NCBI RefSeq assembly: GCF_023507705.1
Contig: NZ_JALBGD010000008.1
Location: 1-64,000, forward strand
Reading direction: 5' to 3'
DNA from: Stappia sp. WLB 29
Lineage (GTDB): Bacteria; Pseudomonadota; Alphaproteobacteria; Rhizobiales; Stappiaceae
DNA length: 64,000 bases
In this document: piece by piece, positions 35,428 through 51,183 of the stretch
Layout of the letters: the number at the start of each line of letters is the position of its first letter
Numbering within the stretch: the first letter of the stretch is position 1
Made by a program: the position numbers and the translations under genes
Notes under the pieces: model-generated
What the model was told of the DNA's origin: nothing
The model's database searches: none
The model's input: only the letters and a program-made list of their open reading frames with translations

Positions 35428-35456
35428 CTCGGGATCTTTCTGCGGATCGGAACGGA

Positions 35457-37022
35457 TCAATTGGACGAGGGGAGCCGGAAGCCGCCGATCAGGCGGTCGA
35501 GCGTTGCATTGACGTAGAAGCCGTTGGCGAAGTGGACCCGCAGACCCGCCGTCGCCGGATGATGCGCCCAGTGCGGGAACAGCGCCTGCGCGATGGCGAC
35601 ACCGCCGAAGGATGCGAGCGCCAGGGCGATCAGCGCCCATTCCAGCGGGCCGGCCTGCGGCGGGGCGGGCAGCGCGCCGCCCGCCACCAGTCCGGCCAGC
35701 ACGTGGAAGCCGAAATAGCCGATGGCGGCGGCGACCGAGGCTGTCGCGGTCTTGCGGGTGAGGGCGGCGGGGGCGGCATCGGCCAGACCCTGCGCCACCA
35801 GATAGGCGACGCCGAAGATCAGGATCGCGCCGAGCGCCAGCGCCTGGGCCGACTTCTCCAGCGGCAGCAGCGAGAAGGCGCCGGCGACAGCCGCGTAAAG
35901 AGCGAGGGCGAGCAGGAAGGCGCGCGTCACCGCGGCGATGCCGGGCGCGGCGACGGGACCCGGCCGCCGCGTCGCCTCTACCGCGCGCACCGCCGTGCCG
36001 GAGGAGAGGAAGGCGTGCGCCTTGTAGAGCGAGTGGGCGACGATGTGCAGCAGGGCGAGCGGCCACAGGCCGAGGCCGCATTGCAGCAGCATGAAGCCCA
36101 TCTGCGCCACCGTCGACCAGGCGAGCGCCGTCTTCACCGCGCTCTGGGTCAGCATGACCAGCGCGCCGAACAGGGCCGAGAAGCCGCCGAGCATGACCAG
36201 CAGCGTCATCGCCGCAGGGCTTGCCTGCACCGGCTCGGCAAGGCGGATGAGCAGCAGACCGCCGGCATTGATGATGCCCGCATGCAGCAGCGCCGAGACC
36301 GGGGTCGGGGCCTCCATCACCTCCGTGAGCCAGCCGTGCAGGGGAAAGGCCGCCGTCTTCAGCAGCGCGGCAAGGACGACCAGCAGCACGGCGATGTCGG
36401 CGGCAAGCGGCATGTCGCCGCCCCGGGCGGCCTCACTGATGCCGGCGAGCGACACCGTGCCGAAGGCGGCCCAGAAGCCGAGGGCGGCAAGCAGCAGCGC
36501 GGCGTCGCCGGCGGTCCAGGCGAGGGTGAACTTCGCCGCCGCCCGCCGGGCCTGCGGCCGCTCGCGGTAGAACAGCAGCAGCTGCCGCAGCAGCGCGCCG
36601 ACGAGGATGAAGCTGAGGATCAGGACCGGCAGGGTGGCGGCCTGCACCAGCACCAGGACGGCGGCGATGGCGGCGAGCAGCAGGCCGTGGAAGGCGCCCT
36701 CCCGCGCCTCGCCGTCGAGATAGCTGCGCGAGAAGCGCACGACCACCCAGCCGACAAAGGCGACCAGGACCGACATGACCGCCGACACCGTGTCGAGAGC
36801 AAGCGCCAGGGCGAGGGGGCCAGAGTCGTTGCTGGTGCCGATGCCGAGCGTTGCCGGCCCGCCAAGCGCCAGCTGGAGCGCGCCGGCAAGGGCGAGAGCG
36901 AGGGACAGCAGCGCGGCGCCCTCCGCCAGTGTCGGCAATGCGCCCGGTCGGCGGCCGGGATGAGCCAGGGCGAAGGCGGCAAGGATCAGGAGCGGCAGGG
37001 GCGCGAGCGCTGTGGGGAACAT
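35457..37022 (-). CDS. dabB: DabB, NuoL-like membrane subunit of the inorganic-carbon pump
   Basis: A 521-residue polytopic protein of the proton-conducting membrane transporter family (NuoL/MrpA related). Characteristic segments are LLKTAAFPLHGWLTEVMEAP and LHAGIINAGGLLLIRL, containing the conserved lysine and histidine of the proton path, and LLHIVAHSLYKAHAFLSSG. The start ATG 37022 has GGAG 7 bases upstream. Always paired with DabA in known systems; couples cation flux to CO2 hydration. No complex I or Mrp genes accompany it, which supports the DAB assignment. Confidence 0.92.
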   Translation of the reverse strand: MFPTALAPLPLLILAAFALAHPGRRPGALPTLAEGAALLSLALALAGALQLALGGPATLGIGTSNDSGPLALALALDTVSAVMSVLVAFVGWVVVRFSRSYLDGEAREGAFHGLLLAAIAAVLVLVQAATLPVLILSFILVGALLRQLLLFYRERPQARRAAAKFTLAWTAGDAALLLAALGFWAAFGTVSLAGISEAARGGDMPLAADIAVLLVVLAALLKTAAFPLHGWLTEVMEAPTPVSALLHAGIINAGGLLLIRLAEPVQASPAAMTLLVMLGGFSALFGALVMLTQSAVKTALAWSTVAQMGFMLLQCGLGLWPLALLHIVAHSLYKAHAFLSSGTAVRAVEATRRPGPVAAPGIAAVTRAFLLALALYAAVAGAFSLLPLEKSAQALALGAILIFGVAYLVAQGLADAAPAALTRKTATASVAAAIGYFGFHVLAGLVAGGALPAPPQAGPLEWALIALALASFGGVAIAQALFPHWAHHPATAGLRVHFANGFYVNATLDRLIGGFRLPSSN

Positions 37023-37107
37023 GTGGGATCTCCGCAAGTGAAGTGCGCGCCGGAGATACCGCTTGCCACTATTCAAGAAAATTACATATTTAAGCGGAAA
37101 TCATTCT

Positions 37108-37137: not shown

Positions 37138-38052
37138 ATGCCGCCGCTCAATCTCCATCACCTCCGGTTGTTCAGCGCCGTCGCCGAGGACGGGACGCTG
37201 ACCGGCGCCGCGCGCCGGCTCAACCTGTCGGCTTCCGCCCTGTCGGCGCAGGTGAAGACGCTGGAGGGGGCGCTGGGCCACGATCTCTTCGAGCGGCGCG
37301 GGCGCGGCCTGGTGCTGACCGAGGCGGGGCGCATCGCCCTCGACCATGCGCAGGCGATCTTCCGCACGGCCGAGGACCTGTCGGCGACGCTGAAGGGCGG
37401 CGGGCAGAAGCCGCGCGCCCTGCGCGTCGGGGCGCTGAGCACCCTGTCGCGCAACCTGCAGATCCAGTTCCTGATGCCGGTGATCGGCAAGCCGGACGTC
37501 GATGTGGTGGTGCGCTCGGGCAGCCAGAAGGAACTGCTGGCCGGGCTGGAATCGCTGGCGCTGGACGTGGTGCTGACCAATGTGGCACCGGCGCGCGACG
37601 AGGCCCGCCGCTATCTCGTCCACCGCATCGCCGAGCAGGCGGCGAGCCTGATCGGCACGCCGGAGCGGGCCGGGCAGGGGCGTTCGCTGGTGGATCTGCT
37701 GGCGCGCGAGCCCCTGGTGCTGCCGACCCGCGAAACGGCGATCCGCGCCGGTTTCGACGTGCTGGCCGCCCGGCTCGGCGTCGTGCCGCGCATCGCCGCG
37801 GAGGTCGACGACATGACGATGATCCGCCTGCTGGCGCGCGAGGATGCGGGGCTTGCCGTCATTCCGCCGATCGTCGTGCGGGACGAACTGGCGAACGGCG
37901 TGCTGGTGGAGGCCGGCCCGCTGCCCGGCATCACAGAGGTCTTCCTGGCGGTGACGGTGGAGCGGCGCTTTCCCAATCCGCTGCTGGCGGACCTCCTGTT
38001 CCGTACGCCCGAGGGGGTGCCGGCAAACTCCGGGGACGGGGCGGGGACATGA
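37138..38052 (+). CDS. LysR-family regulator divergent from dabBA
   Basis: A 304-residue LTTR with an N-terminal helix-turn-helix (GTLTGAARRLNLSASALSAQ, residues about 21-40) and a typical effector domain (VGALSTLSRNLQIQFLMPVI). The N-terminal LNLHHLRLFSAVAEDG pattern is NhaR/CbbR-like. Divergent orientation and a 115-base shared control region imply that it regulates the DAB operon. LTTRs such as CbbR and CcmR control carbon uptake elsewhere, so a CO2- or metabolite-responsive role is a reasonable inference. Confidence 0.88.
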   Translation: MPPLNLHHLRLFSAVAEDGTLTGAARRLNLSASALSAQVKTLEGALGHDLFERRGRGLVLTEAGRIALDHAQAIFRTAEDLSATLKGGGQKPRALRVGALSTLSRNLQIQFLMPVIGKPDVDVVVRSGSQKELLAGLESLALDVVLTNVAPARDEARRYLVHRIAEQAASLIGTPERAGQGRSLVDLLAREPLVLPTRETAIRAGFDVLAARLGVVPRIAAEVDDMTMIRLLAREDAGLAVIPPIVVRDELANGVLVEAGPLPGITEVFLAVTVERRFPNPLLADLLFRTPEGVPANSGDGAGT

Positions 38053-38254: not shown

Positions 38255-38731
38255 ATGCAAATTGATGAGTTCGATAGGAAAATACTTTCTGTAATTCAAG
38301 ATGATGCTAGCCTATCCATAGCTCAGGTTTCTGAGAAGGTAGGTCTCTCGACAACGCCATGTTGGCGTCGCCTCCAGAAGCTCGAGCGAGAGGGGTATAT
38401 CGACGGCCGCGTAACGCTTTTGAATCAAAGCAGGATCGGCCTCGAGCTCACGGTTTTCGTGATGATACGGACCAGCCAGCACAACACAGCCTGGCTGGAG
38501 AAGTTCAACAGCGTCGTGAGTCTATTCCCGGAAATCGTGGAAGTGAACCGACTGGCGGGCGAGTATGACTATCTCTTGAAGGTAATCACCAAGAGCAATT
38601 CGTCCTACGACGCCTTCTACAAGAAGTTCATCAATCTCATCGAGCTCAATGATGTCACATCCTGTTTCTCAATGGAACAAATCAAGCGAAGTACCCGACT
38701 ACCACTCGACGCTGTCGATGGCGGACGCTGA
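38255..38731 (+). CDS. Lrp/AsnC-family transcriptional regulator
   Basis: A 158-residue regulator. The N-terminal helix-turn-helix is SLSIAQVSEKVGLSTTPCWR (about residues 20-39), followed by a RAM/ligand-sensing domain with NRLAGEYDYLLKVI. AGAGG lies about 10 bases before ATG 38255; an earlier ATG at 38216 would add 13 residues. Its first 200 bases use AT-rich codons (aaa, ata, cta, tct), unlike the genes on either side. The next gene begins inside it. As first gene of the thiazoline/cysteine-type cluster it probably senses an amino acid and controls the operon. Confidence 0.88.
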   Translation: MQIDEFDRKILSVIQDDASLSIAQVSEKVGLSTTPCWRRLQKLEREGYIDGRVTLLNQSRIGLELTVFVMIRTSQHNTAWLEKFNSVVSLFPEIVEVNRLAGEYDYLLKVITKSNSSYDAFYKKFINLIELNDVTSCFSMEQIKRSTRLPLDAVDGGR

Positions 38732-40457
38732 CGCGCGCATCGCGCGGATCCGCGCCGGCGTCATCGGCGAGGGCCGGGCGATCGAAACCCCCTTCGGCGT
38801 GCGGCCTCTCGTCTATGCGGACTATGTTGCCTCCGGGCGCGGACTGTCCTTCATCGAGGACCTGATCCGCGACCGCATCCTCCCCGACTACGGCAACACC
38901 CACACGGAAACCTCCTATACCGGCCGCCAGACGACGGTGCTGCGCGAGGCCGCCCGCGAGACCATCCGCAAGGCGGTCGGCGCAGACCAGCGCCATGCGG
39001 TGATCTTCACCGGCTCCGGCGCCACCTCGGCCGTCAACAAGCTGGTGCGCGCCCTGCAATTGCAGGGCCGCCTGCCGCGGCGGGCCTCTGTCGCCGAGAC
39101 GCCTCAGAGCGAGCTGCCGGTGGTCTTCGTCGGCCCCTACGAGCACCATTCCAACGACCTGCCGTGGCGCGAGACCGGCGCCCGCATCCGCCGCATTCCG
39201 CTGAACGCGGCCGGCGGCATCTGCCTCGACACGCTGGCGCGCGAACTCGCCGCCGTCGGCGAGGGCGTGCCGCGCTTCGGCGTGTTCTCGGCCGCCTCCA
39301 ACGTCACCGGCGTCAAGAGCGACGTGCGGGCGATTGCGAAGCTCCTGCATGCCCATGGCGCCCTGTTCTTCTGCGACTATGCGGCCGGCGCCCCCTACAT
39401 GCCGATCTGCATTGGCGAGACGGCGGAAGGGGCGGGCGATCACATCGACGCGCTGTTCCTGTCGCCGCACAAGTTCGTCGGCGGGCCGGGCGCGTCCGGC
39501 CTGCTGATCTGCGACAAGGCGCTGTTCGAGGGCATCGAGCCGACCGCCACCGGCGGCGGCACGGTCAGCTACGTGACCGCGGAAGGACATTGCTACGTCT
39601 CCAGCGTCGAGCGGCGCGAGGAAGCGGGCACGCCCAACATCGTCGGCGACATCAAGGCGGGCCTGGCGCTGGAGCTGAAGGACTGCGTCGGCGCGCACGA
39701 GATCGAGCGCCGCGAGGCGGCGATGGTGGCGCGGGCCATGCGCAACTGGGCGCAGGACCCGAATATCGAGCTGCTGGGGCCGCTCGACGCCGAGCGCATC
39801 GGCGTCTTCGCGCTGAACATCCGCAGCGGCTCCAAGAAGCTGCATTACGGTCTCGTCGTCGCGCTGCTGAACGACCTGTTCGGCATCCAGGCGCGCGGCG
39901 GCTGCTCCTGCGCCGGGCCTTACGGCCATGCGCTGCTGGGAATCGGCGACGACGATGCGCTGCGCCACCAGCAGGAGGTGCGCGGCGGGCAGAGCGTGCT
40001 GCGGCCGGGCTGGGTGCGGCTCGGGTTCAACTACTTCTTCGACGAGCGCACCACCGACTACATCATCGAGGCGGTGCGCTTCGTCGCAGCCCACGGTGCG
40101 GCCTTCATGTCGCTCTACAAGGTCAACCCGCAGTCCGGCGTGTGGGCGATGAGCGGGGCCGTGCGTCCCAAGGCGCGGCCTGCAACGCTGCTCGAGGCGC
40201 TTGCCCCCGATGCCGCGCTGCAGCAAACTGGCGAGGCGAACGTGCCGGACTTCGACACGTGTCTTGAAACGGCGCGGCGGCTGGCCGCCGAGCAGGAAGC
40301 GGCGCTTGCCGGCCTTGCCGGGGATCCCTGCGGCGATTGCGGCGAGGACGACAGCCTGCGCTGGTTCTGGCGGCCCGAGGAACTGCCGCTTCTCCACAGC
40401 CAGTTGATCGCCGGGGCGAGAACTTCTATCCACAAACCCCCGTCCCGGGCCTCTTGA
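38649..40457 (+). CDS. Class V aminotransferase-fold enzyme, cysteine-desulfurase-like
   Basis: A PLP enzyme of 602 residues if started at 38649 (83-base overlap with the Lrp gene) or 579 if started at 38718; neither start has a strong ribosome-binding site. The PLP lysine is K275 in SPHKFVGGPG. RGGCSCAGPYG (C419, C421) aligns with the RTGHHCA active-site loop of SufS/CsdA, so the catalytic cysteine of cysteine desulfurases appears retained at C421. The C-terminal 100 residues are extra relative to SufS and include a CGDCG motif before DDSLRWFWRPEE. Likely removes sulfur or an amino group from a cysteine-like substrate. Confidence 0.82.
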   Translation: MMSHPVSQWNKSSEVPDYHSTLSMADADARIARIRAGVIGEGRAIETPFGVRPLVYADYVASGRGLSFIEDLIRDRILPDYGNTHTETSYTGRQTTVLREAARETIRKAVGADQRHAVIFTGSGATSAVNKLVRALQLQGRLPRRASVAETPQSELPVVFVGPYEHHSNDLPWRETGARIRRIPLNAAGGICLDTLARELAAVGEGVPRFGVFSAASNVTGVKSDVRAIAKLLHAHGALFFCDYAAGAPYMPICIGETAEGAGDHIDALFLSPHKFVGGPGASGLLICDKALFEGIEPTATGGGTVSYVTAEGHCYVSSVERREEAGTPNIVGDIKAGLALELKDCVGAHEIERREAAMVARAMRNWAQDPNIELLGPLDAERIGVFALNIRSGSKKLHYGLVVALLNDLFGIQARGGCSCAGPYGHALLGIGDDDALRHQQEVRGGQSVLRPGWVRLGFNYFFDERTTDYIIEAVRFVAAHGAAFMSLYKVNPQSGVWAMSGAVRPKARPATLLEALAPDAALQQTGEANVPDFDTCLETARRLAAEQEAALAGLAGDPCGDCGEDDSLRWFWRPEELPLLHSQLIAGARTSIHKPPSRAS

Positions 40458-40470
40458 GAACGGACCGCCC

Positions 40471-41769
40471 ATGTTTTCCAGCAAGCAGATCTCGGCATCC
40501 CTTTGGGCGGACACCGCCCCGCCGCGACAGGCGGCACCGGCCGTCGCCGGCCGCATCGAGACCGATGTGGCGGTCATCGGCGGGGGATTCTCGGGCCTTT
40601 CCACGGCGCTGCATCTGGCAAGGGCCGGGCACCGGGCAATGGTGCTGGAAGGCATGGAGGTCGGCTTCGGCGGATCGGGCCGCAACAACGGCCAGGTGAT
40701 CCCGACCATGACGGCGGCCGAGCCGGACGCGATCGAGACGCGATTCGGCGAGGCCGGCGAGCGGTTCGTCGCCCTGGTGCGCGACAGCGCCTCCTACCTG
40801 TTCGACACCGTCCGCGAGGAAGGGATCGACTGCGAGGCGGAGCAGACGGGCTGGTTCCAGCCCGCGCACCGGGAAAGCCGGCTGAAGCTGAGCCGGGCCC
40901 GCGTCGAGGCCTGGGCGAAGCGCGGCGCGCCGGCCCGCCTGGTGGAGGCGGCCGAATGCGCCGAGCTGCTCGGCTCGGATCGCTGGTTCGGCGGCATGTA
41001 CAACCCGACCGGAGGCCATATCAACCCGCTGGCGCTGGCGCGCGGCCTGGCAAGCGCCTGCGAGGCCAAGGGCGTTGCGATCCACGAGAAGAGCCCCGTC
41101 GAGGCGGTGGAACGGCGCGAGGGCCGCTGGCACCTGCGCACCCCGTCCGGCGAGGTCGTCGCCCGCTCCGTGATGCTGGCCAGCAACGCCTATACGGGCT
41201 TCCTGTCCTCGCAGCTGGCGCCGAAGGTGGCACGCTCCGTCGTGCCGGTCCTGTCCTGGCAGATGGCGACGCGTCCGCTCACCGAGGCGCAGCGCGAGGT
41301 GGTCGTGCCGGGCCGCCAGGCCGTCTCCGACACCCATGGCGACCTGCATTTCTTCCGCTACGACAGGCGGAACCGCCTGGTGACCGGCGGCGCGCTGGCA
41401 CTCGGTCACAACGGCCCGGACCGGCTGCGCGAGATCGTCGGCCGCCGGCTGCAGACGGCCTTCCCGGTGCTCGGAAAGCCGGAATTCGACTTCGTGTGGA
41501 ACGGCTATATCGGCATGACCGAGGACCGGTTCCCCTTCATCTGCCAGCTCGGCCCCGACTTCTGGTGCTGGGCCGGCTGCAACGGCCGCGGTGTCGCCCT
41601 TTCGGTGTCGCTCGGCCGGGAATTCGCAGCGGCGATCGCCGGCACTCCGGTCTCGCAGCTCGCCCTGCCTATGTCCGATCCCAAGCCAATCCCCCTGCAC
41701 GGTCTGGTCAAGACCTTCGCCCCGCCGGTGATGCTTCAGCTGTACCGGTGGCGCGACGGCCGCGACTGA
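40471..41769 (+). CDS. FAD-dependent amino-acid/amine oxidoreductase (DadA/PuuB-like)
   Basis: A 432-residue flavoenzyme. FAD motif VAVIGGGFSGLSTALHLARA lies near residue 33, followed by GFGGSGRNNGQVIPT, which is typical of gamma-glutamylputrescine- and sarcosine-type oxidases. The C-terminus has NGYIGMTEDRFPFICQLGPD and CNGRGVALSVSLG. It lies 13 bases after the class V gene and 35 before the first ATC-hydrolase-like gene. Expected to oxidise a C-N bond of an amino compound brought in by the Liv-type system. Exact substrate unknown. Confidence 0.85.
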   Translation: MFSSKQISASLWADTAPPRQAAPAVAGRIETDVAVIGGGFSGLSTALHLARAGHRAMVLEGMEVGFGGSGRNNGQVIPTMTAAEPDAIETRFGEAGERFVALVRDSASYLFDTVREEGIDCEAEQTGWFQPAHRESRLKLSRARVEAWAKRGAPARLVEAAECAELLGSDRWFGGMYNPTGGHINPLALARGLASACEAKGVAIHEKSPVEAVERREGRWHLRTPSGEVVARSVMLASNAYTGFLSSQLAPKVARSVVPVLSWQMATRPLTEAQREVVVPGRQAVSDTHGDLHFFRYDRRNRLVTGGALALGHNGPDRLREIVGRRLQTAFPVLGKPEFDFVWNGYIGMTEDRFPFICQLGPDFWCWAGCNGRGVALSVSLGREFAAAIAGTPVSQLALPMSDPKPIPLHGLVKTFAPPVMLQLYRWRDGRD

Positions 41770-41804
41770 CCCAAGCAACGACAAGCAAAAGGACGATGCC
41801 CCAT

Positions 41805-42314
41805 ATGACCCAGGAAACCACCACCGAGCCGGTCGTCACGCTCGACATGCTGAAGGCGGCCTTCGCCATGCGCGCCAAGGCCTATGCGCATATGTTCGAC
41901 GTCCTGCGCGAGGCCTATGGCGCCGACCGCGCCGTCGAGCTGATCGCCGAATCCACCCGTCGTCTGGGCAAGGACATGGGCAAGAAGTTCGCGCATCTGG
42001 GCCCGGACGACCTGCCGGGCCTGAAGGACGCCTTCATCGGCGGCATCCCGTGTTCCGACCAGATGTTTGCGCCCGAGATCAAGAAGTGCGACGACGAGAG
42101 TCTGGAAATCCAGTTCCACCGCTGTCCGCTGAAGGACACGTGGACGGAGCAGGGCCGCAACGAGGAAGATCTCGAGCTGCTCTGCAAGGCCGCCGGCGCC
42201 ATCGACGGCGGCCTGTTTACCGAGGCCGGGTTTACCTTCAAGGGAGAAACCTGGACAAAGGGCAAGACCGGTTGCTGCCTGCTGCGGGTGGAGCCGGGCG
42301 CGAACGCAGGCTGA
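41805..42314 (+). CDS. 2-aminothiazoline-4-carboxylate (ATC) hydrolase family protein, first copy
   Basis: A 169-residue cytosolic protein resembling the L-2-amino-thiazoline-4-carboxylic acid hydrolase family (PF14196 type). It has the family layout: helical N-terminus with RAKAYAHMFDVLREAYGADR, the central IQFHRCPLKDTWTEQG, a second cysteine in LLCKAAGAIDGG, and the terminal KGKTGCCLLRVEP, where most relatives have CDFRF. ATG 41805 is preferred over 41796 because AAAGGA is then about 11 bases away. ATC hydrolase opens ATC to N-carbamoyl-cysteine in Pseudomonas. The family is broad, so this reaction is a hypothesis. Confidence 0.7.
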   Translation: MTQETTTEPVVTLDMLKAAFAMRAKAYAHMFDVLREAYGADRAVELIAESTRRLGKDMGKKFAHLGPDDLPGLKDAFIGGIPCSDQMFAPEIKKCDDESLEIQFHRCPLKDTWTEQGRNEEDLELLCKAAGAIDGGLFTEAGFTFKGETWTKGKTGCCLLRVEPGANAG

Positions 42315-42394
42315 GCTGACTGTCATCCCGGCTGCGGGGTGACCCCATCAAACAACAAACCAAAAGCTCTTCCAGAATACAGGAGAAGATCACT

Positions 42395-43519
42395 ATGACG
42401 ATGTCTCGCAGGACCACCATCGGGTTGCTCGCCGGCGCCGCCGGCATGCTCGCCGTGCCGTTCGGTGCGATGGCCGAGGGGCCGGTTTATCTCGGCTACC
42501 AGCTGCCGCTGACCGGCAACACGGCGCAGTACGGCCAGGACTTCAAGACCGCCGCGGAGATCGCCCTCAAGGACTTCAACGCCTCCGGCAAGATCAAGGT
42601 GCCGGTGGAGATCATCTTCGAGGACTCCCGCTCCGACGCGAAGGAAGGCGTTGCCATCGCCCGCAAGTTCGTCGACGACGACCGCATCGTCGCGGCGCTC
42701 GGCGACTTCACCTCCACCGTGTCGATGGCCGCTGCCCAGGTCTACAAGCGCGCCGAGATGGCCCAGCTGAGCCAGACCGCATCCCATCCGGACTTCGCCA
42801 AGATCTCCGAATGGCAGTTCCGTAACATCACCACGCAGGCCCAGGAAGGCGTCTACAACGCCGACTGGATGAACGAGCAGGGCCTGAAGAAGATCGCGGT
42901 CATCGCCGAGCAGACCGACTGGGGCCAGTCGGTGGTCAAGGACTTCGCCGAAAAGGTCGAGGCCAATGGCGGCGAGGTGGTCTTCACCGAGTTCTTCAAC
43001 CGCGGCCTGCCGGACTTCCGCTCGATCATCACCAAGATCGAGCGCGCCAAGCCGGACGCGATCTACACGGGCTTCTTCTATGAGGACGGCGCCCAGTTCC
43101 TCAAGCAGATGCAGCAGCTGAACATCGACATTCCGGTCTATTCGACCTCCGCCGCGTACAACCAGAAGCTCGTCGAGCTCGCCGGTCCGGCCGCCGAAGG
43201 CCTGTTCCTGACGGTCACCTTCCTGCCCAACAGCGAGACCGATCACGTCAAGAAGTTCGTCGACGAGTGGAAGGCCGCCCGCGGCGGCGCCGAGCCCGGC
43301 CAGTTCCCGGCCCAGGCCTACGACGCGGTGAACATCATGCTCGAGGCCGTCGCCCGCGCCTATCCGGACGTCTCGCGCCAGAACGTCCGCGACGAGCTGG
43401 CCAAGACCAAGGACTTCCCGGGCGTCACCGGCGTCACCTCCTTCGACGAGAACGGCGAGGCCCTGAAGCAGCTCACCAAGGCAACGGTGACCGGCGGCCA
43501 GTTCGTCCCGCTCAAGTAA
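42395..43519 (+). CDS. Liv-type ABC substrate-binding protein (second system)
   Basis: A 374-residue periplasmic receptor (Peripla_BP_6). The signal sequence is MTMSRRTTIGLLAGAAGMLA with probable cleavage after AMA. The mature part opens GPVYLGYQLPLTGNTAQYGQ, the ligand-binding start of Liv receptors. AGGAG lies 9 bases upstream. A 15-bp perfect hairpin (43529-43563) separates it from the permease genes. Located between the ATC-hydrolase-like genes, so the ligand is likely the substrate of that enzyme set. Confidence 0.9.
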   Translation: MTMSRRTTIGLLAGAAGMLAVPFGAMAEGPVYLGYQLPLTGNTAQYGQDFKTAAEIALKDFNASGKIKVPVEIIFEDSRSDAKEGVAIARKFVDDDRIVAALGDFTSTVSMAAAQVYKRAEMAQLSQTASHPDFAKISEWQFRNITTQAQEGVYNADWMNEQGLKKIAVIAEQTDWGQSVVKDFAEKVEANGGEVVFTEFFNRGLPDFRSIITKIERAKPDAIYTGFFYEDGAQFLKQMQQLNIDIPVYSTSAAYNQKLVELAGPAAEGLFLTVTFLPNSETDHVKKFVDEWKAARGGAEPGQFPAQAYDAVNIMLEAVARAYPDVSRQNVRDELAKTKDFPGVTGVTSFDENGEALKQLTKATVTGGQFVPLK

Positions 43520-43528
43520 CGCCGCGTT

Positions 43529-43563
43529 CCCCGCTCCCCGGACGCAAGGTCCGGGGAGCGGGG
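43529..43563 (+). terminator. 15-bp perfect hairpin between binding-protein and permease genes (second Liv system)
   Basis: CCCCGCTCCCCGGAC (43529-43543) pairs fully with GTCCGGGGAGCGGGG (43549-43563) around a 5-base loop. No T-run follows. Probably limits read-through or protects the 3-prime end of the receptor message. Confidence 0.65.
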
Positions 43564-43688
43564 CCGCAGCCGGGCTCCGCAGGCTTGTGCGTATCGAGGA
43601 CCTGCCGCCGCCATGACCCGGTTCCCGGGGGGCGGGGACGGCTCCCGTTACGCCTGGTTCCCGTGTTCCCAGGTCAGGACAGACTCCC

Positions 43689-44603
43689 GTGATCGATCCC
43701 TATTACCTGCAACAGCTGACGATCGGCATATCGCTCGGCATGGTCTATGCCCTGATGGCCATCGGTTTCACGCTGATCTTCGGCGTTCTCAACGTCGTCA
43801 ACTTCGCCCATGGCGAGGTCTACACGATCGGCGCCTTCGCCGGCATCATGGCGATCGCCGCCTTCGGCCCGCCCTTCCTCGTCATCGTCTTCATTGTCCT
43901 GGCGGTCGGTGCGCTGGCGGGCTTCAGCCTGGAAAGGGTGGCGTTCAGGCCATTCCGAAGATTCTCGGACGAAGCCTCGCTGAAATCGCGGGCCATGCGC
44001 GAGGCGACGCTGATGTCCTCGCTGGCCATGTCGATCATCGCCCGCGAGGCCATGGAGTTGCTGTTCGGCTCCGAGTTCCAGACCATCGACATCGGCTACC
44101 TGATCAACAAGCCGATCTCGCTCGGTCCGGTCACCATCGTCAACGGCGACATCATCATCTTCGTCGTCTCGGTGCTGATGCTGGGCGGGCTGCAGTGGCT
44201 GCTGAAATACAGCGCCATCGGCCTGTCGATCCGCGCGGTGTCGAACAATCCGCTGGGCGCGAAATATGTCGGCATCAACACCGACCGCACCATCGTGCTG
44301 ACCTTCGTCATCGGCTCGATGATGGGCGCGCTCGCCGGCATTCTCGTCGGCCTCTACTACGGTGCGGTGTTCCCCTCGATGGGCTTCATCCCGGGCGTCA
44401 AGGCGTTCGTCGCCATGGTCATGGGCGGGTTGAGTTCGATTCCGGGCGCCGTCATCGCGGCGCTGGTGCTGGGCGTGGCGGAAAGCCTGTCGACGACCTT
44501 CGTGTCGTCGGTCTGGGCCGACATGGTCGCGTATCTCTTCCTCATCGTCACCTTGGTGTTCTTCCCGCAGGGGCTCTTCGGAGCGAGGAGGGAACGTGTC
44601 TAA
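43689..44603 (+). CDS. Liv-type ABC permease (LivH family, second system)
   Basis: A 304-residue membrane permease starting at GTG 43689 with AGGA about 9 bases upstream. Signature GFTLIFGVLNVVNFAHGEVY lies near residue 25. The coupling loop is MVMGGLSSIPGAVIAALVLG. Overlaps the next permease gene by 8 bases. Confidence 0.9.
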   Translation: MIDPYYLQQLTIGISLGMVYALMAIGFTLIFGVLNVVNFAHGEVYTIGAFAGIMAIAAFGPPFLVIVFIVLAVGALAGFSLERVAFRPFRRFSDEASLKSRAMREATLMSSLAMSIIAREAMELLFGSEFQTIDIGYLINKPISLGPVTIVNGDIIIFVVSVLMLGGLQWLLKYSAIGLSIRAVSNNPLGAKYVGINTDRTIVLTFVIGSMMGALAGILVGLYYGAVFPSMGFIPGVKAFVAMVMGGLSSIPGAVIAALVLGVAESLSTTFVSSVWADMVAYLFLIVTLVFFPQGLFGARRERV

Positions 44604-45606
44604 GGACTTTATTCAGTCGGCGGGCCTCAAGCTCGCCATCCTGGCGGTGCTCTTCGTCGCCCTTCCGCTCCTCCTGGTGTCCCTGGACAAGGGCTACATC
44701 TACCAGGTGGTCATGCTGGCCCTGATCTTCTCGCTGCTGGCCGTGTCGCTGCAGCTGGTCACGGGCATTGCCGGTCTGCTGCATCTGGGCCATGCCGCCT
44801 TCTACGGCGTCGGCGCCTATATCGCGGCGCTGGCCGGGGCCGATTACGGCATCGGTTTCACCCTCGGCCTGCCGCTGGCGGGCCTCGGCGCGGCGGCCAT
44901 CGCCTTCGTCGTCGCGCTGCCGACCATGCGTCTCGTCAGCATCTACTTCGCCGTCGCCACGCTCGGCATCGGCCAGATGATCTTCCTCGTCCTGCAGAAC
45001 TGGGTCGAGGTGACGAAGGGGCCGAACGGCGTCAGCCTGTTCTCCGGGATCGACCTGTTCGGCTATACCGTCGACAGCGAACTGGGCATCTACTTCGTGG
45101 TGGCGACCATCGTCTGCATCTCGATCTGGGTCATTCACCGGCTGAGCCATTCCTATTACGGCAATGCCCTGCGCAGCCTGCGCGAAGACGACCAGTGCGC
45201 CGATGCGATGGGCATCAACACGGTCCGGCTGAAGATCGAGTCCTTCATGATCTCGTCCTTCTTCGCCGGCATCGCAGGCGCCTTGTGGGCCTACACCACG
45301 GGCTACATCTCGCCGGTGGACTTCGACTTCGCGGAATCGATCCTGATCCTCGCCATGGTCGTGGTCGGCGGGCTGGGCAGCATTCCCGGCGCCATCATCG
45401 GCGCCCTGCTCCTGATCCTGCTGCCCGAGGCCCTGCGCGGGGTGGGCGACATGCGCAACATCATCGTCGGCTTCGTGCTGTTCTTCTCGATCCTGTTCCT
45501 GCCCAAGGGACTGTTCGGAGAGGTGCCCTCGCTCAACTTCATCCGCCGTCAGTTCGGCTCCGCCTGGCAGGACAATCCCGACAAGCAGAAGGTGGGCTGG
45601 AAATGA
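44596..45606 (+). CDS. Liv-type ABC permease (LivM family, second system)
   Basis: A 336-residue permease starting at GTG 44596. Signature LVTGIAGLLHLGHAAFYGVG lies near residue 55. The coupling loop VVVGGLGSIPGAIIGALLLI is near residue 260. Overlaps the LivG-type gene by 4 bases. Confidence 0.9.
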   Translation: MSKDFIQSAGLKLAILAVLFVALPLLLVSLDKGYIYQVVMLALIFSLLAVSLQLVTGIAGLLHLGHAAFYGVGAYIAALAGADYGIGFTLGLPLAGLGAAAIAFVVALPTMRLVSIYFAVATLGIGQMIFLVLQNWVEVTKGPNGVSLFSGIDLFGYTVDSELGIYFVVATIVCISIWVIHRLSHSYYGNALRSLREDDQCADAMGINTVRLKIESFMISSFFAGIAGALWAYTTGYISPVDFDFAESILILAMVVVGGLGSIPGAIIGALLLILLPEALRGVGDMRNIIVGFVLFFSILFLPKGLFGEVPSLNFIRRQFGSAWQDNPDKQKVGWK

Positions 45607-46358
45607 CCGCCATGCTCGAGGTGGACAACGTGTCCCGGCGCTTCGGCGGCCTCATGGCTGTCGACAGCGTCACCACCACCGTCGGAGAGCGGGAACTCGT
45701 CGGCCTGATCGGCCCGAACGGCGCCGGCAAGACGACGCTGTTCAACCTGATCTCCGGCTTCACCCCGGTCTCGTCGGGCGAGATCCGCTATCGCGGCGAG
45801 AAGATCAGCGGCCTCAAGCCGTCGGTCATCGCGTCGAAGGGCATCTCGCGCACGTTCCAGAACCTGCGCGTCTTCCCGAACATGACGGTGTTCGACAACG
45901 TCTCCGTCGGCGCGGTCGGGGCTATCGGCCAGACGCCCTGGCAGGCGATCGTCGGCGGATCGAACCGCGCGCAGCAGATCTCCGAACGGAGCTGGGAGGC
46001 GCTGGAGAAGGTCCAGCTCACCCGCTATGCCAACGATCTTGCGGCGAACCTTGCCTATGGCAAACGCAAGTATCTGGAAATCGCCCGCGCGCTGGCGATG
46101 AACCCGGACCTGCTGATCCTTGACGAACCGGCCGCGGGACTGAACGATTCCGAGACGGCGGAGCTGGCCTCCTTCATCAAGGACCTGCATTCCAGCGGGA
46201 TCACCGTCATGCTCGTCGAGCACGACATGGGCCTCGTGATGAGCATTTGCGAGCGCATCGTCGTGCTGGCGTCGGGCAAGAAGATCGCCGATGCGGAACC
46301 GTCGGTCGTCCGGCAGAACCGCGAGGTGCTGGAAGCCTATCTGGGGGTGGACGAGTGA
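45603..46358 (+). CDS. Liv-type ABC ATPase (LivG family, second system)
   Basis: A 251-residue ATPase. Walker A is GPNGAGKTT (about residues 39-47), Walker B is LLILDEPAAGLND, and the switch histidine is in LVEHDMGLV. The signature region reads LAYGKRKYLEIARAL, the usual LivG variant of the ABC signature. Overlaps the following LivF-type gene by 4 bases (GTGA). Confidence 0.9.
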   Translation: MTAMLEVDNVSRRFGGLMAVDSVTTTVGERELVGLIGPNGAGKTTLFNLISGFTPVSSGEIRYRGEKISGLKPSVIASKGISRTFQNLRVFPNMTVFDNVSVGAVGAIGQTPWQAIVGGSNRAQQISERSWEALEKVQLTRYANDLAANLAYGKRKYLEIARALAMNPDLLILDEPAAGLNDSETAELASFIKDLHSSGITVMLVEHDMGLVMSICERIVVLASGKKIADAEPSVVRQNREVLEAYLGVDE

Positions 46359-47065
46359 ACGTTCTCGAAATCGCAAACCTGTCCCTGCGGATCGGCGTCC
46401 AGGACATCCTGCACGACATCAGCCTGGACGTCGCCGAGAAGGGCATCTACGCCATTCTCGGCGCCAACGGTGTCGGCAAGACCAGCCTGATGCGCTGCAT
46501 CTCCGGCATCTACCACCCGACCGGCGGCGAGATCCGCTACGAGGGCAAGAACATCGTCGGCCTGAAGAGCCACCAGATCGTCGATCTCGGCATTCTCCAG
46601 GCCCCCGAAGGGCGGCAGATCTTCTCCAACATGAGCGTGCTGGAGAACCTGACCATCGGCGGCGGGCCGCTGAAGACGGCGGAGCTCGACCGGGTGCTCG
46701 GGCTGTTCCCGAAGCTGAAGGAACGGCTCAAGCAGGGCGCCGGCTCCCTGTCGGGCGGCGAGCAACAGATGCTGTGCATCGGCCGCGCCCTGATGCGCCG
46801 GCCCAAGGTGCTGCTGCTCGACGAGCCCTCGCTCGGCCTTGCGCCGATGCTGGTGCGCTTCATCTTCGACCTGGTCGAGGAGATCCGCGCGCAGGGCTAC
46901 TCGATCCTGATCGTCGAGCAGAACGCCAAGGCGGCGCTGCGCATCGCCGACCGGGCCGCCGTTATCGAGGGCGGCAAGATCGTCATGGAAGGCTCCGCCA
47001 AGGAGCTGGCCAGTGACAGCCGCGTCGCCGACGCCTATCTGGGAGGGCATGTCGCGGCGCATTGA
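46355..47065 (+). CDS. Liv-type ABC ATPase (LivF family, second system)
   Basis: A 236-residue ATPase starting at GTG 46355 within the end of the LivG-type gene. Walker A is GANGVGKTS (about residues 35-43), the signature is LSGGEQQM and Walker B is VLLLDEPSLGL. The last 40 residues (ADRAAVIEGGKIVMEGSA) are standard LivF. It completes a full HMGF set directly upstream of the second ATC-hydrolase-like gene. Confidence 0.9.
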   Translation: MNVLEIANLSLRIGVQDILHDISLDVAEKGIYAILGANGVGKTSLMRCISGIYHPTGGEIRYEGKNIVGLKSHQIVDLGILQAPEGRQIFSNMSVLENLTIGGGPLKTAELDRVLGLFPKLKERLKQGAGSLSGGEQQMLCIGRALMRRPKVLLLDEPSLGLAPMLVRFIFDLVEEIRAQGYSILIVEQNAKAALRIADRAAVIEGGKIVMEGSAKELASDSRVADAYLGGHVAAH

Positions 47066-47105
47066 GCCGCGGCATCGGGCACGACACAGGAAAGAGGGAC
47101 CCACG

Positions 47106-47576
47106 ATGACGCTGCCGATGATCGAGAAACGCCGGATCGAGGCCGCGGTCCTCAAGCACGTCTTCGATGTGCTGGTGGAGCGGCACGGGCGCGAGGAAGC
47201 GGAAAAGGTGATCGGCGAGGCCGTCTCCAACTCCGCCATCGCGCAGGGCAAGGAGTTCCGGGAAAAGGAGCCGCAGGAGCCCGACCTCGAGAACTTCGCC
47301 GACCTGCTGCCGCTGTGGCAGATGGACGACGCGCTGCAGATCGAGGTGCTGGAGAAGGGGCCGGACCGGCTCGACTTCAACGTCAAGCGCTGCCGCTATT
47401 CCGAGGTCTACAAGGAGATGGGGCTCGGCGATATCGGCCACCTGCTCTCCTGCAACCGCGATGGCGACTTCTGCATCGGCTACAATCCGCGGATGGAGCT
47501 GACGCGCACCCAGACGATCATGAAGGGCGCGTCCCATTGCGACTTCCGCTACCGGCTGAAGCCGGCGGCCGAATAA
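47106..47576 (+). CDS. 2-aminothiazoline-4-carboxylate (ATC) hydrolase family protein, second copy
   Basis: A 156-residue protein with the same family layout as the copy at 41805-42314 but low overall identity. The N-terminal helix has FDVLVERHGREEAEKVIGEA. The cysteine-bearing core is KRCRYSEVYKEMG, followed by LLSCNRDGDFCIGYNP and the canonical C-terminal GASHCDFRYRLKP. GAGGG lies 8 bases upstream. The two copies bracket the transporter and may form a heteromer or act on different ring substrates. No separate N-carbamoyl-cysteine amidohydrolase gene was seen in the cluster. Confidence 0.7.
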   Translation: MTLPMIEKRRIEAAVLKHVFDVLVERHGREEAEKVIGEAVSNSAIAQGKEFREKEPQEPDLENFADLLPLWQMDDALQIEVLEKGPDRLDFNVKRCRYSEVYKEMGLGDIGHLLSCNRDGDFCIGYNPRMELTRTQTIMKGASHCDFRYRLKPAAE

Positions 47577-48568: not shown

Positions 48569-49201
48569 TCAGTTTCCGGGAAAGGCCTTGCGGGCGGCAG
48601 CAATGAGGCCTTGTGCCTTGTCCGCAAGCTGGTCGAGGGAGATGCCCGGCCGGTAGAGAGAGGAGCCGAGGCCGAAGCCGCTGGCGCCGGCCTGGCACCA
48701 GGGCGCCATCGTCGTGGTGTCGATGCCGCCGACGGGAAGCAGCAGCGCCTCTTTCGGCATGACGCTGCGCCAGGCCTTGAGCGCGCGCGGCTCCATCGCC
48801 TCGGCCGGGAAGAGCTTCAGCGCGTCCGCCCCCTGGCGCAGCGCGGCGAAGGCCTCGGACGGGGTGGCGACGCCCGGAAGCGTCGCGAGCCCGCTCGCCT
48901 GCGCCTCAGCCACCACGTCGGGAGCGTAGTTCGGCGCGACCATCAGCCGGCCGCCGACATCGGCGAGCCGGCGGCACTGGTTCGGCTCGAGCACCGTTCC
49001 TGCGCCGATCAGCGCCCGCCCGCCGTGGGACTTCGCCAGCTTGTCGATGCTGGCGAAGGGATCGGGCGAGTTGAGCGGCACCTCGATGATGCGGAAGCCG
49101 GCCTCGAAGAGGACGTCGGCGACATCGGTGATTTCCGCCGGGGTGACGCCGCGCAGGATGGCAATGAGCGGGCAGGCGGCAAGCGCTTCGCGCAAGGTCA
49201 T
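48569..49201 (-). CDS. dgoA: 2-dehydro-3-deoxy-6-phosphogalactonate aldolase
   Basis: A 210-residue class I aldolase of the KDPG/KDPGal family. It cleaves 2-keto-3-deoxy-6-phosphogalactonate to pyruvate and glyceraldehyde 3-phosphate. The Schiff-base lysine is in ADALKLFPAEAMEP, and the catalytic glutamate is in IIEVPLNSPDP, where PLN is the DgoA rather than Eda pattern. It overlaps the kinase gene by 4 bases. Final step of the De Ley-Doudoroff route encoded at this locus. Confidence 0.93.
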   Translation of the reverse strand: MTLREALAACPLIAILRGVTPAEITDVADVLFEAGFRIIEVPLNSPDPFASIDKLAKSHGGRALIGAGTVLEPNQCRRLADVGGRLMVAPNYAPDVVAEAQASGLATLPGVATPSEAFAALRQGADALKLFPAEAMEPRALKAWRSVMPKEALLLPVGGIDTTTMAPWCQAGASGFGLGSSLYRPGISLDQLADKAQGLIAAARKAFPGN

Positions 49202-50145
49202 GTCAGGTCTCCCATGGCCGCGGCGAGGATCTGCCGGGCACCGTCGATCGCGGCATGGTCGCTCCCCTCAACGACATCCAGCCCGAAATGGCGGGCGACG
49301 ACGGCATAGCGGCGGTTGAGCCCGTCATTGCCGACGATGCCGATGCGCTCGCCGCTGGCGAAGAAGCCGCAATTGCGGGCCTGGCGGAACTCCTGCGCGA
49401 TCAGGAGCCCGGAGACGTAGTCGCGAATTTCGCCAGGGGCAAGCTTGCCGGCGAGCATGCCGGTACGCGCGGCAAAGACCAGCGAGAGCATGGCATCGCC
49501 CTCTGCGCCTTCCGGCGAGCCGTCTTCGATGCCGCGCTCGAAGGCGGCCATGTCTTCCCCGGCATGTTCCGAGCCGGCGGCGCGGGCAATGAACGAATGC
49601 TGCGTCAAAAGGGCGAAGAACTCGCCGGTGACGAAGGTGCGAAAGCCCGAGATCCGTCCGCCGGCAACGCGGGCCCACTTGCTGTGAGTACCGGGCAGGA
49701 CGAGCGTTGCGTCCTTTTCCAGGCCGAAGCCGACGATCTGGGTCTCCTCGCCGCGCATCACATCGGGGAAGGGCGCGCGGGCCGGATCGTTGATGCCGGC
49801 GAGCAGGATGGCGCGCGAGCCGTTGGAAAGGGTGCGCGTGACCGTACCCCGCGCAAGGTCTTCGAGCGAGCACGGGCAGGGGACATAGGGCACCTCGATC
49901 CAGCCGTTGCGGCTGGTGACCATGCCGACCAGCACGATGTCGAGCGCTCCTTCCGCCTCCAGCCAGGGCGCGAGCAGGGCAAGCAGCCGGGTCTCGAACG
50001 CATGCTTTTCCACAAACTGGATGCCGTCGCCCGTCTCGATGCGGTCGCGCTGCGTGCCGTCGGCGGCGAGCAGCACCGCGCGGAAGGAGGTGGTGCCCCA
50101 GTCGACCACGACATGCGGCGCATTGAGGGCGGAGGGGGAGGGCAT
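49198..50145 (-). CDS. dgoK: 2-dehydro-3-deoxygalactonokinase
   Basis: A 315-residue sugar-acid kinase phosphorylating 2-keto-3-deoxygalactonate. The N-terminal phosphate motif is VVDWGTTSFRAVLL (about residues 12-25), followed by VGMVTSRNGWIEVPYVPCPC and LVLPGTHSKWARV, all DgoK signatures. ATG 50145 has AAAGGA 7 bases upstream; an earlier ATG at 50187 is less likely. Divergent from the DHDPS-like gene with a 114-base shared promoter. Confidence 0.93.
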   Translation of the reverse strand: MPSPSALNAPHVVVDWGTTSFRAVLLAADGTQRDRIETGDGIQFVEKHAFETRLLALLAPWLEAEGALDIVLVGMVTSRNGWIEVPYVPCPCSLEDLARGTVTRTLSNGSRAILLAGINDPARAPFPDVMRGEETQIVGFGLEKDATLVLPGTHSKWARVAGGRISGFRTFVTGEFFALLTQHSFIARAAGSEHAGEDMAAFERGIEDGSPEGAEGDAMLSLVFAARTGMLAGKLAPGEIRDYVSGLLIAQEFRQARNCGFFASGERIGIVGNDGLNRRYAVVARHFGLDVVEGSDHAAIDGARQILAAAMGDLT

Positions 50146-50259
50146 GAATCGGTCCTTTCGGGGAGCGGCGGTGGGTCGAGCATTCATGCTTGTCTTAGCC
50201 GGAGAAACAAGATAGTGTCAATTTATGAAACATAGTCTCACATATTGGACATAGACGAC
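50146..50259. promoter_or_regulatory. Divergent promoter region of the galactonate locus
   Basis: The AT-rich tract 50205-50255 separates dgoKA from the plus-strand operon. ACATA recurs at 50230-50234, 50240-50244 and 50249-50253, close to helical phasing and immediately before the plus-strand start. An IclR-type regulator encoded in the plus operon is the most obvious binder. Promoter elements cannot be assigned securely. Confidence 0.4.
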
Positions 50260-51183
50260 ATGACTGATCTCGCCGGCATCCTTCCGGTTCTCCCGACGCC
50301 CTTCACGCAAGACGGAAAGGTGGATCTTCCGGCGATGCGCCGCCTGGTCCGCTTCGCGCTCGATTGCGGTGTGGACGGCGTCGTCTTCCCGGGTTTCGCC
50401 AGCGAGGTGGAGCAACTGGAAGCGGGCGAGCGGGCCGAGCTGCTGGCGCTGGTGGCGCAGGAGGCCGGCGGCAAGGTGCCGGTGGTCGCCGGCGCCAGCG
50501 CACCGAGCGCCGCGGACGTGATCGTCCATGGCCGCGTGGCGGCCTCCGTCGGCGTCACCTGGCTGATGATCCAGCCGCCGGTCGCCATCGGCCGCGAAGC
50601 GGCGGCGGTGACGGCGTTCATGAGCGAGGTGGCGGCCGGCCTGCCGGAGGCGCGTATCGTGCTGCAGAACGCCCCGGCGCCGCGCGGCTCCGACATTGCG
50701 CCGCAGACCCTGGTCGAGGTGGCGCGTGCCGTGCCGCAGATCGCCTATGTCAAGGAAGAGACCCTGCCGGCGGGACCGGCGATCAGCCATCTGCTCGCCC
50801 ATCGGCCGCAGACGCTGGCCGGCGTCATCGGCGGCGGCGGGGCGCGCTACATTCTCGACGAATATGCGCGCGGGGCCTGCGCGGCCATGCCCGCCATCGA
50901 GATTGCCGACGAGCATGTCGCGCTCGACCGGGCCTGGCGGGCCGGGCGCATCGCCGAGGCGCGGGAGATCTATGTGCGGACCCTGCCGCTGCTGACGCTG
51001 CAGGCCGTCTACCGGATGCGCCTGACCAAGCATGTGATGATCCGCCGCGGCGTGCTGGAGAACACCGTGGTGCGCGCACCCACGCCGGAGCTCGACGGCC
51101 CGGCGAGCGCGGATATAGATGCCAACCTTGCGGCGCTCGGCATCGGCGCGCCGCAGGCGGCTGTCGCCGGGGGCGCCCGATGA
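50260..51183 (+). CDS. Dihydrodipicolinate synthase/N-acetylneuraminate lyase family protein lacking the catalytic Tyr
   Basis: A 307-residue (beta/alpha)8 barrel. The Schiff-base lysine is present (K165 in AYVKEE), but the family tyrosine of YNxP is Q136 in VLQNAPAPRG. Opening segment GILPVLPTPFTQDGKVDLPA is normal. ATG 50260 was chosen; a TTG 15 bases upstream is possible and no clear ribosome-binding site is visible, so a leaderless message is conceivable. Family members include aldolases and dehydratases for 2-keto-3-deoxy sugar acids. Loss of the tyrosine suggests changed chemistry. Confidence 0.8.
   Translation: MTDLAGILPVLPTPFTQDGKVDLPAMRRLVRFALDCGVDGVVFPGFASEVEQLEAGERAELLALVAQEAGGKVPVVAGASAPSAADVIVHGRVAASVGVTWLMIQPPVAIGREAAAVTAFMSEVAAGLPEARIVLQNAPAPRGSDIAPQTLVEVARAVPQIAYVKEETLPAGPAISHLLAHRPQTLAGVIGGGGARYILDEYARGACAAMPAIEIADEHVALDRAWRAGRIAEAREIYVRTLPLLTLQAVYRMRLTKHVMIRRGVLENTVVRAPTPELDGPASADIDANLAALGIGAPQAAVAGGAR

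Follow-up and report, generated by a model that had tools for sequence, protein, structure and literature searches.

Thioproline (thiazolidine-4-carboxylate, the formaldehyde adduct of cysteine) and related thiazolidines arise from cysteine and aldehydes, and their oxidation in bacteria is credited, in the portions of the literature at hand, to enzymes of proline metabolism. As described in passages of a study on rat tissue, thiazolidine-4-carboxylate is converted via thiazoline-4-carboxylate and N-formylcysteine to cysteine and formate, with proline oxidase catalyzing the first step (PMC2645137), and the conversion to N-formylcysteine is also stated for bacteria and mitochondria in a passage of PMC9814826. 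Another ring compound, 2-aminothiazoline-4-carboxylate (ATC), is degraded to cysteine in Pseudomonas by an ATC racemase, an ATC hydrolase and a carbamoyl-cysteine amidohydrolase, according to excerpts of PMC10821248. Here, we compare with these routes an operon at positions 38255-47576 of a 64,000-nucleotide stretch of the Stappia sp. WLB 29 genome (in the following, the window), which consists of ten open reading frames, all in the same direction on the plus strand, and encodes an Lrp/AsnC-family regulator, a class V pyridoxal phosphate (PLP) enzyme, a DAO-family flavoprotein, a Liv-type transporter and two proteins of the ATC hydrolase family PF14196, ATC1 and ATC2 (Table 1).

A preliminary description of this DNA had already outlined a co-directional, Lrp-headed run with class V enzyme, oxidase, full Liv system and two ATC hydrolase-like proteins, and all ten frames were confirmed. 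Both PF14196 proteins exceed the curated cut-off of 28.1 bits, ATC1 more weakly and ATC2 as a strong member, and they are the sole matches reported in a search of the genome for this family. Most likely, the operon represents a hitherto undescribed catabolic pathway that combines known enzyme families in a new way; literature searches restricted to open-licence papers did not find a description of such a cluster. As to its function, the evidence tips modestly toward catabolism of thiazolidine-4-carboxylate-type compounds, i.e., cyclic cysteine-aldehyde adducts.

Partner genes of ATC2 in related loci

An alignment search with ATC2 yielded at least 591 confirmed places in named genomes, the best 80 of which were included in a census, with neighbours being assigned by tblastn against our own reference set with identity thresholds; 63 of these loci comprise at least 19 kb, while absences in the remaining ones are uncertain. 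Two partner sets emerged that are never mixed in the 80 loci. A DAO flavoprotein is encoded in 60 loci, in 59 of them on the same strand as ATC2 (exception, L121), and 49 of the 60 also bear a gene for an M20 N-acyl amidohydrolase, which was seen in none of the other 20 loci. Carbamoylase genes, on the other hand, are found in six loci and never together with the flavoprotein. Neither partner is present in 14 loci, five of which show a cytochrome P450 set and one, L133, a flavoprotein. The latter locus was dropped as a DAO-oxidase locus, its flavoprotein matching the one of L044 and being of another Pfam type.

This separation can be related to the substituent at C2 of the ring. With an amino group, as in ATC, ring opening yields carbamoyl-cysteine and a carbamoylase is needed. 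With hydrogen or carbon at this position, the natural precursor is a saturated thiazolidine, so that the C2=N bond has to be introduced by an oxidase beforehand, and opening of the resulting thiazoline gives an N-acylcysteine, for which an aminoacylase is needed. The canonical ATC operon, with the ATC hydrolase gene adjoining one for carbamoyl-cysteine amidohydrolase, is not found in the window, as the operon has no gene of the latter type. The lack of a carbamoylase more plausibly points to a different class of substrates, degraded via an N-acyl and not an N-carbamoyl intermediate, and the substrate is probably not ATC.

Within the 60 oxidase loci, the class V enzyme is encoded in 24 and a protein related to the L-cysteine desulfhydrase Cds1 in 11, never both together; the chance of zero overlap would be 0.0018 if both were independent over the 60 loci, a value ignoring shared descent. 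Likewise, the Liv transporter is exchangeable, as 43 of these loci have a Dpp set with a VOC gene, 13 the Liv set of the window together with ATC1 and four neither importer. Reading clusters of further neighbours common to the oxidase loci by eye revealed no new recognisable enzyme across distant genera; leftover clusters mostly resemble opposite-strand shadows of known genes, and some are common within one genus group.

The same sets are evident from named plasmids and genomes. On Sagittula and Pseudosulfitobacter plasmids, Lrp and VOC genes are divergent from those for a Dpp importer, the class V enzyme, flavoprotein, ATC2 and an M20 aminoacylase. One Azospirillum plasmid carries genes for M20, flavoprotein, ATC1, Liv and ATC2, another one for Lrp, Rid, a cysteine-synthase-family protein, ATC1, Liv, ATC2, M20 and flavoprotein, and Agrobacterium shows flavoprotein, ATC2 and M20 followed by the cysteine-synthase-family protein at the end. 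The ATC gene of Pantoea, Aminobacter and Sinorhizobium precedes a carbamoylase-family hydrolase gene (assignment checked against models for Pantoea and Sinorhizobium) and has a LysR-type gene nearby in each; the Pantoea locus also possesses a Liv importer. Paroceanicella and Azospirillum sp. B510, where neither flavoprotein nor carbamoylase adjoins ATC2, fit neither set, and Martelella has Lrp, a racemase-family gene, Liv, ATC2 and a flavoprotein of another type. Near the head of the ATC2 operons in L044 (Martelella mediterranea plasmid), L133 and L126, an Asp/Glu racemase-family gene is located, perhaps encoding a racemase for the ring amino acid comparable to the ATC racemase mentioned for Pseudomonas in excerpts of PMC10821248.

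Loci of the P450 type (L077, L122, L123, L124, and L128) share a gene for a P450, one for a glyoxalase-like protein and distant Liv genes (in L122 LivF only, near the contig end), as well as a cysteine-synthase-like gene in four of the five (not in L123), and a DAO flavoprotein was assigned in none; a Pfam check showed the P450 in L124 and the glyoxalase-like and cysteine-synthase-like proteins in L122. The P450 may replace the oxidase in these loci. It was not seen in L085, L131, L132, L135, L136, L138, L141, and L147, whereas L133 was outside the P450 scan.

To some extent, the partner sets appear to follow the phylogeny of the PF14196 proteins. On a tree of 85 members, nine carbamoylase-linked rows correspond to 2 changes (8.7 with shuffled labels) and 60 oxidase-linked rows to 8 changes (21.8 with shuffled labels). 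The latter rows are not identical to the 60 census loci, as the window, three plasmid rows and L133 are among them and five truncated rows are absent. Branch support varies across the tree, several long branches come together, and one oxidase-linked Azospirillum row is placed beside the carbamoylase group. A comparison of 82 ATC2 sequences, both carbamoylase- and oxidase-linked (L133 counted among the latter), revealed C96, C116, R118, D119, C145, D146, and R148 as near-invariant (at least 97% of the sequences), which suits one ring-opening chemistry acting on two kinds of thiazoline. Between the two groups, eight positions differ mildly, giving no clue to the substrate.

Enzymes and transporter of the Stappia operon

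The best NCBIfam model for the flavoprotein is L-pipecolate oxidase AmaA (NF050086) with 263.7 bits, the next model reaching 122.3, and AmaA is also the best one for four out of four orthologs tested, hence in five of five cases; sarcosine and glycine oxidase models match as well, with scores lower than AmaA. L-pipecolate oxidase attacks its cyclic substrate at the carbon distal to the carboxylate, which corresponds to the position that would yield a thiazoline. With this nearest model, oxidation of the saturated ring to the thiazoline, prior to ring opening, is the more likely sequence of events.

In an alignment with the SufS of the same genome, the class V enzyme keeps the Cys, Lys, His and Asp residues and the Arg near the Cys, including the SufS-type cysteine position pointed out previously, whereas the Gln beside the PLP-binding Asp is not kept and the second Arg falls into a gapped, ambiguous stretch. 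In SufS, the catalytic positions are the Cys, the Lys binding PLP, the His and the Arg contacting the substrate. Since the genome possesses this separate SufS with a full score (600.4 bits), iron-sulfur assembly is an unlikely role for the class V enzyme, which is probably an L-cysteine desulfurase judging from the conserved residues. A control search found class V matches in 38 of 249 genomes of the order (own included), and 20 of the other 37 loci, mostly the best-scoring ones, were fetched. Five of these contain ATC2, all of them with the flavoprotein; among the remaining 15, flavoprotein identity stays below 45% and an M20 protein is present in one (57%). In 12 of the 20 loci (counted by eye), an Lrp gene lies no more than about 2 kb from that for class V.

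The cysteine-synthase-family protein of the sister operons attains 561.7 (Agrobacterium) and 535.4 bits (Azospirillum) with the Cds1 model (cut-off, 600), and the Rid encoded beside it in Azospirillum fits an enamine-releasing elimination. According to a passage of PMC8389258, Cds1 converts cysteine to H2S and pyruvate. In Aminobacter, a shorter class V relative adjoins a protein close to the persulfide dioxygenase Blh model (561.4 bits; cut-off, 625), and a 67% homolog of the latter is present at a second locus (L064), in line with release of sulfane sulfur. Both L037 and L064 combine a short class V relative with a protein homologous to the persulfide dioxygenase portion of Blh and a divergent Lrp gene, possibly a small unit for disposal of cysteine sulfur.

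The Liv-type (HAAT) importer is complete in one run, with one PF13458, two PF02653 and two PF00005 proteins. However, none of its components reaches the cut-off of the NCBIfam branched-chain models (LivK, 136.7 bits versus 477; LivH, 194.7 versus 379; LivM, 201 versus 366; LivG, 252.9 versus 362; LivF, 218 versus 441). The nearest solved chain to the binding protein is 3hut_A (300.7 bits), annotated as putative branched-chain amino acid transporter; a ligand in this entry, if present, could hint at the substrate.

ATC1 and ATC2 have a three-Cys pattern in common, and their profile comparison results in a probability of 93.5% over 105 columns. Searching solved structures with profiles of ATC2 and of ATC1 returned no match at E up to 1, and single-sequence matches of ATC2 to ion channels (E 0.21-0.28) were regarded as chance. 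ATC1 is encoded in 13 of the 80 ATC2 loci, always together with the Liv set of the window. A control search detected ATC1 matches in 17 of 385 genomes of the class (own included), and the other 16 loci were fetched as stretches of at most 20 kb, with an M20 gene in one (53%) and distant Liv genes in five.

Proposed route and competing explanations

From gene content and conserved residues, we infer the following sequence of steps. The Liv system would import a compound of the thiazolidine-4-carboxylate type, and the flavoprotein would oxidize the ring N-C2 bond to form a thiazoline-4-carboxylate. ATC2 would then add water and open the ring to an N-acylcysteine (N-formylcysteine if C2 bears only hydrogen), from which an M20 N-acyl amidohydrolase, in this genome a copy elsewhere, would free L-cysteine. 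The class V enzyme would finally remove the cysteine sulfur, leaving alanine and sulfane sulfur, and the Lrp protein would act as local regulator. Two M20 homologs outside the operon, 62 and 45% identical to the Sagittula M20 protein, may serve the pathway. The copy at C23:271802 was also considered as a displaced operon gene, which was dropped because similar copies are present in ATC2-less genomes and as extras beside an operon M20; the better homolog looks like a general paralog.

Several observations weigh against this route. The 80 loci are interrelated and were picked by likeness to ATC2 proteins. The flavoprotein stays far below the AmaA cut-off of 600 bits, and the class V enzyme is far under the SufS model TIGR01979 with 139.5 bits (140.3 in the genome search) at a cut-off of 475.1. 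An M20 gene is absent from the window operon, its counterparts in the same genus and its nearest relatives L069, L070 and L071, the last of these representing the operon without class V. Moreover, four of 13 genomes searched have no ATC2 match yet an M20 protein at 59-63% identity, and three genomes with an operon M20 hold another one at 55-57%. Neither class V nor Cds1 is encoded nearby in 25 of the 60 oxidase loci, five loci combine ATC2 with a cytochrome P450 set without the oxidase, and nine (L085, L131, L132, L133, L135, L136, L138, L141, and L147) have neither oxidase nor carbamoylase. In addition, ATC2 is found in none of the 16 ATC1 control loci and a flavoprotein in one (47%), so that ATC1 is not tied to this pathway.

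Ordinary ATC catabolism, comprising import, opening by ATC2 to carbamoyl-cysteine, a carbamoylase encoded elsewhere and desulfuration by the class V enzyme, would agree with the 50-51% identity of ATC2 to the carbamoylase-adjoining ATC proteins of Pantoea, Aminobacter and Sinorhizobium and with its 54-59% identity to those of L125 and five Pseudomonas loci, which lie beside carbamoylase-family genes. Carbamoylase-family homologs are indeed present in the Stappia genome, the best one (G000:C23:22876) being 47% identical to the Pantoea protein. This route is nevertheless improbable, as it leaves the flavin oxidase without a role, oxidase and carbamoylase occur together in none of the 80 loci and the partner hydrolase is the M20 N-acyl enzyme in 49 of the 60 oxidase loci. 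Slightly better placed, albeit still unlikely, is degradation of another cysteine-derived compound via an N-acyl intermediate, for instance a sulfur ring with six members or several substituents, or an N-alkylated cysteine that the flavoprotein would dealkylate. The DAO family does cover further amine oxidases, the lower-scoring sarcosine and glycine oxidase models among them, and the Dpp-type importers of 43 oxidase loci would suit a larger substrate, but the thiazoline-opening family would then be left without its natural ring, and L-pipecolate oxidase is the best model for all five flavoproteins tested.

A biosynthetic cluster forming a thiazoline or thiazole from cysteine, with the class V enzyme as sulfur donor, seems very improbable: enzymes of class V and the oxidation of thiazolines are known from biosynthesis too, whereas importers, Lrp, M20 hydrolases and the cysteine desulfhydrase of the sister operons indicate breakdown. 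Even less credit is given to plain uptake of branched-chain amino acids with unrelated neighbours; the transporter belongs to the Liv-type sequence family, but its scores are far under the leucine-type cut-offs, in other genera the set remains linked to the enzyme genes, and the importer of other operons is of a different kind.

Thiazolidine catabolism is the preferred explanation, and the reading given in the preliminary description is partly supported: its broad idea holds, with corrections in detail. Import, opening and desulfuration of a cysteine-derived heterocycle agree with the gene context (M20, class V/Cds1 exchange, carbamoylase separation), but oxidation, which had been placed after ring opening, probably precedes it, considering the proximity of the flavoprotein to L-pipecolate oxidase. 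The flavin oxidase described there as DadA-like is a DAO-family protein with AmaA as nearest model. A carbamoylase was rightly reported missing from the operon; a carbamoylase-family protein is encoded elsewhere in the genome. The combination of class V, ATC1 and ATC2 recurs in the same genus and in L069 and L070, and ATC1 relatives turned up without ATC2.

More tentatively, many marine and plant-associated Alphaproteobacteria might possess a dedicated modular pathway for salvaging cysteine trapped by aldehydes as thiazolidine, in which the importer (Liv or Dpp), the oxidant (flavoprotein or P450) and the enzyme that finally consumes cysteine (desulfurase or desulfhydrase) can each be exchanged. 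If so, such a pathway would join recycling of aldehyde damage to sulfur and nitrogen nutrition. The dedicated operon would name candidates for importer, oxidase, thiazoline hydrolase and N-acylcysteine hydrolase, would give a function to many ATC-hydrolase-family genes, considering the at least 591 places with ATC2 relatives, and would turn adducts of cysteine with aldehydes into a sulfur source that can be tested for in marine and soil habitats.

Operon layout and known counterparts

Table 1. Genes of the operon in the window, with family matches.
Feature	Position	Strand	Family match
Lrp/AsnC-family regulator	38255..38731	+	PF13412, PF13404, PF01037 above cut-off
Class V PLP enzyme, probable L-cysteine desulfurase, C-terminal extension	38718..40457	+	PF00266 (Aminotran_5), 145.7 bits
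DAO-family flavoprotein oxidase, proposed thiazolidine-4-carboxylate oxidase	40471..41769	+	PF01266, 223.8 bits
ATC1, distant PF14196 protein	41796..42314	+	PF14196, 49.8 bits
Liv-type periplasmic binding protein	42395..43519	+	PF13458, 212.2 bits
LivH-type permease	43689..44603	+	PF02653
LivM-type permease	44596..45606	+	PF02653
LivG-type ATPase	45603..46358	+	PF00005 and PF12399
LivF-type ATPase	46355..47065	+	PF00005
ATC2, proposed thiazoline hydrolase (ring-opening)	47106..47576	+	PF14196, 135.9 bits

Junctions between the genes range from a 14-base overlap (Lrp/class V) to a gap of 169 bases (binding protein/LivH), and an alternative upstream ATG at 38649 is possible for the class V gene. 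No promoter-like site was detected, and terminator matches are at chance level. The complete set of ten genes recurs in two congeneric genomes, with 93-99% identity for each gene, and in one locus each from Hoeflea and Stappia (L069 and L070), these two genera providing the nearest named relatives; due to this recurrence, the grouping is not attributable to chance. An Lrp gene also heads the operon in G146, G173, L069, L070, and L071. Upstream, a DabA-type inorganic carbon transporter gene adjoining a proton-antiporter-family gene (33028-37076, minus strand) is found near a LysR regulator gene (37138-38052, plus strand). Downstream, genes for a KDPG/KHG aldolase and a 2-keto-3-deoxygalactonokinase (minus strand) and a DHDPS-family gene (plus strand) at 48569-51183 are probably a cluster for sugar-acid breakdown.

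When compared with characterized enzymes, the flavoprotein resembles L-pipecolate oxidase AmaA as its best NCBIfam model, but gene context and the low score set it apart. The class V enzyme shares the Cys and PLP-Lys positions with SufS-type cysteine desulfurases, while differing in its low model score and longer C terminus. Cds1, which replaces it in sister operons, belongs to another PLP family (PALP) and forms H2S and pyruvate instead of the alanine and sulfane sulfur proposed for class V. With the Pseudomonas ATC pathway, the operon has in common a PF14196 hydrolase with the same conserved residues, cysteine as proposed end product and the Liv-type importer, which adjoins at the Pantoea locus and at two of the five Pseudomonas loci. 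In contrast to this pathway, window-type operons add a flavin oxidase, M20 replaces the carbamoylase in 49 of 60 relatives and a desulfurating PLP enzyme is encoded in 35 of them. The chemistry proposed for the operon, from thiazolidine via thiazoline and N-formylcysteine to cysteine, equals that of thioproline oxidation in mitochondria and Escherichia coli (passages of PMC2645137 and PMC9814826). There, however, as far as these passages go, proline oxidase/dehydrogenase or ProC acts on a proline analogue, whereas the window operon would unite the genes for an importer, an oxidase and a ring-opening enzyme dedicated to the route.

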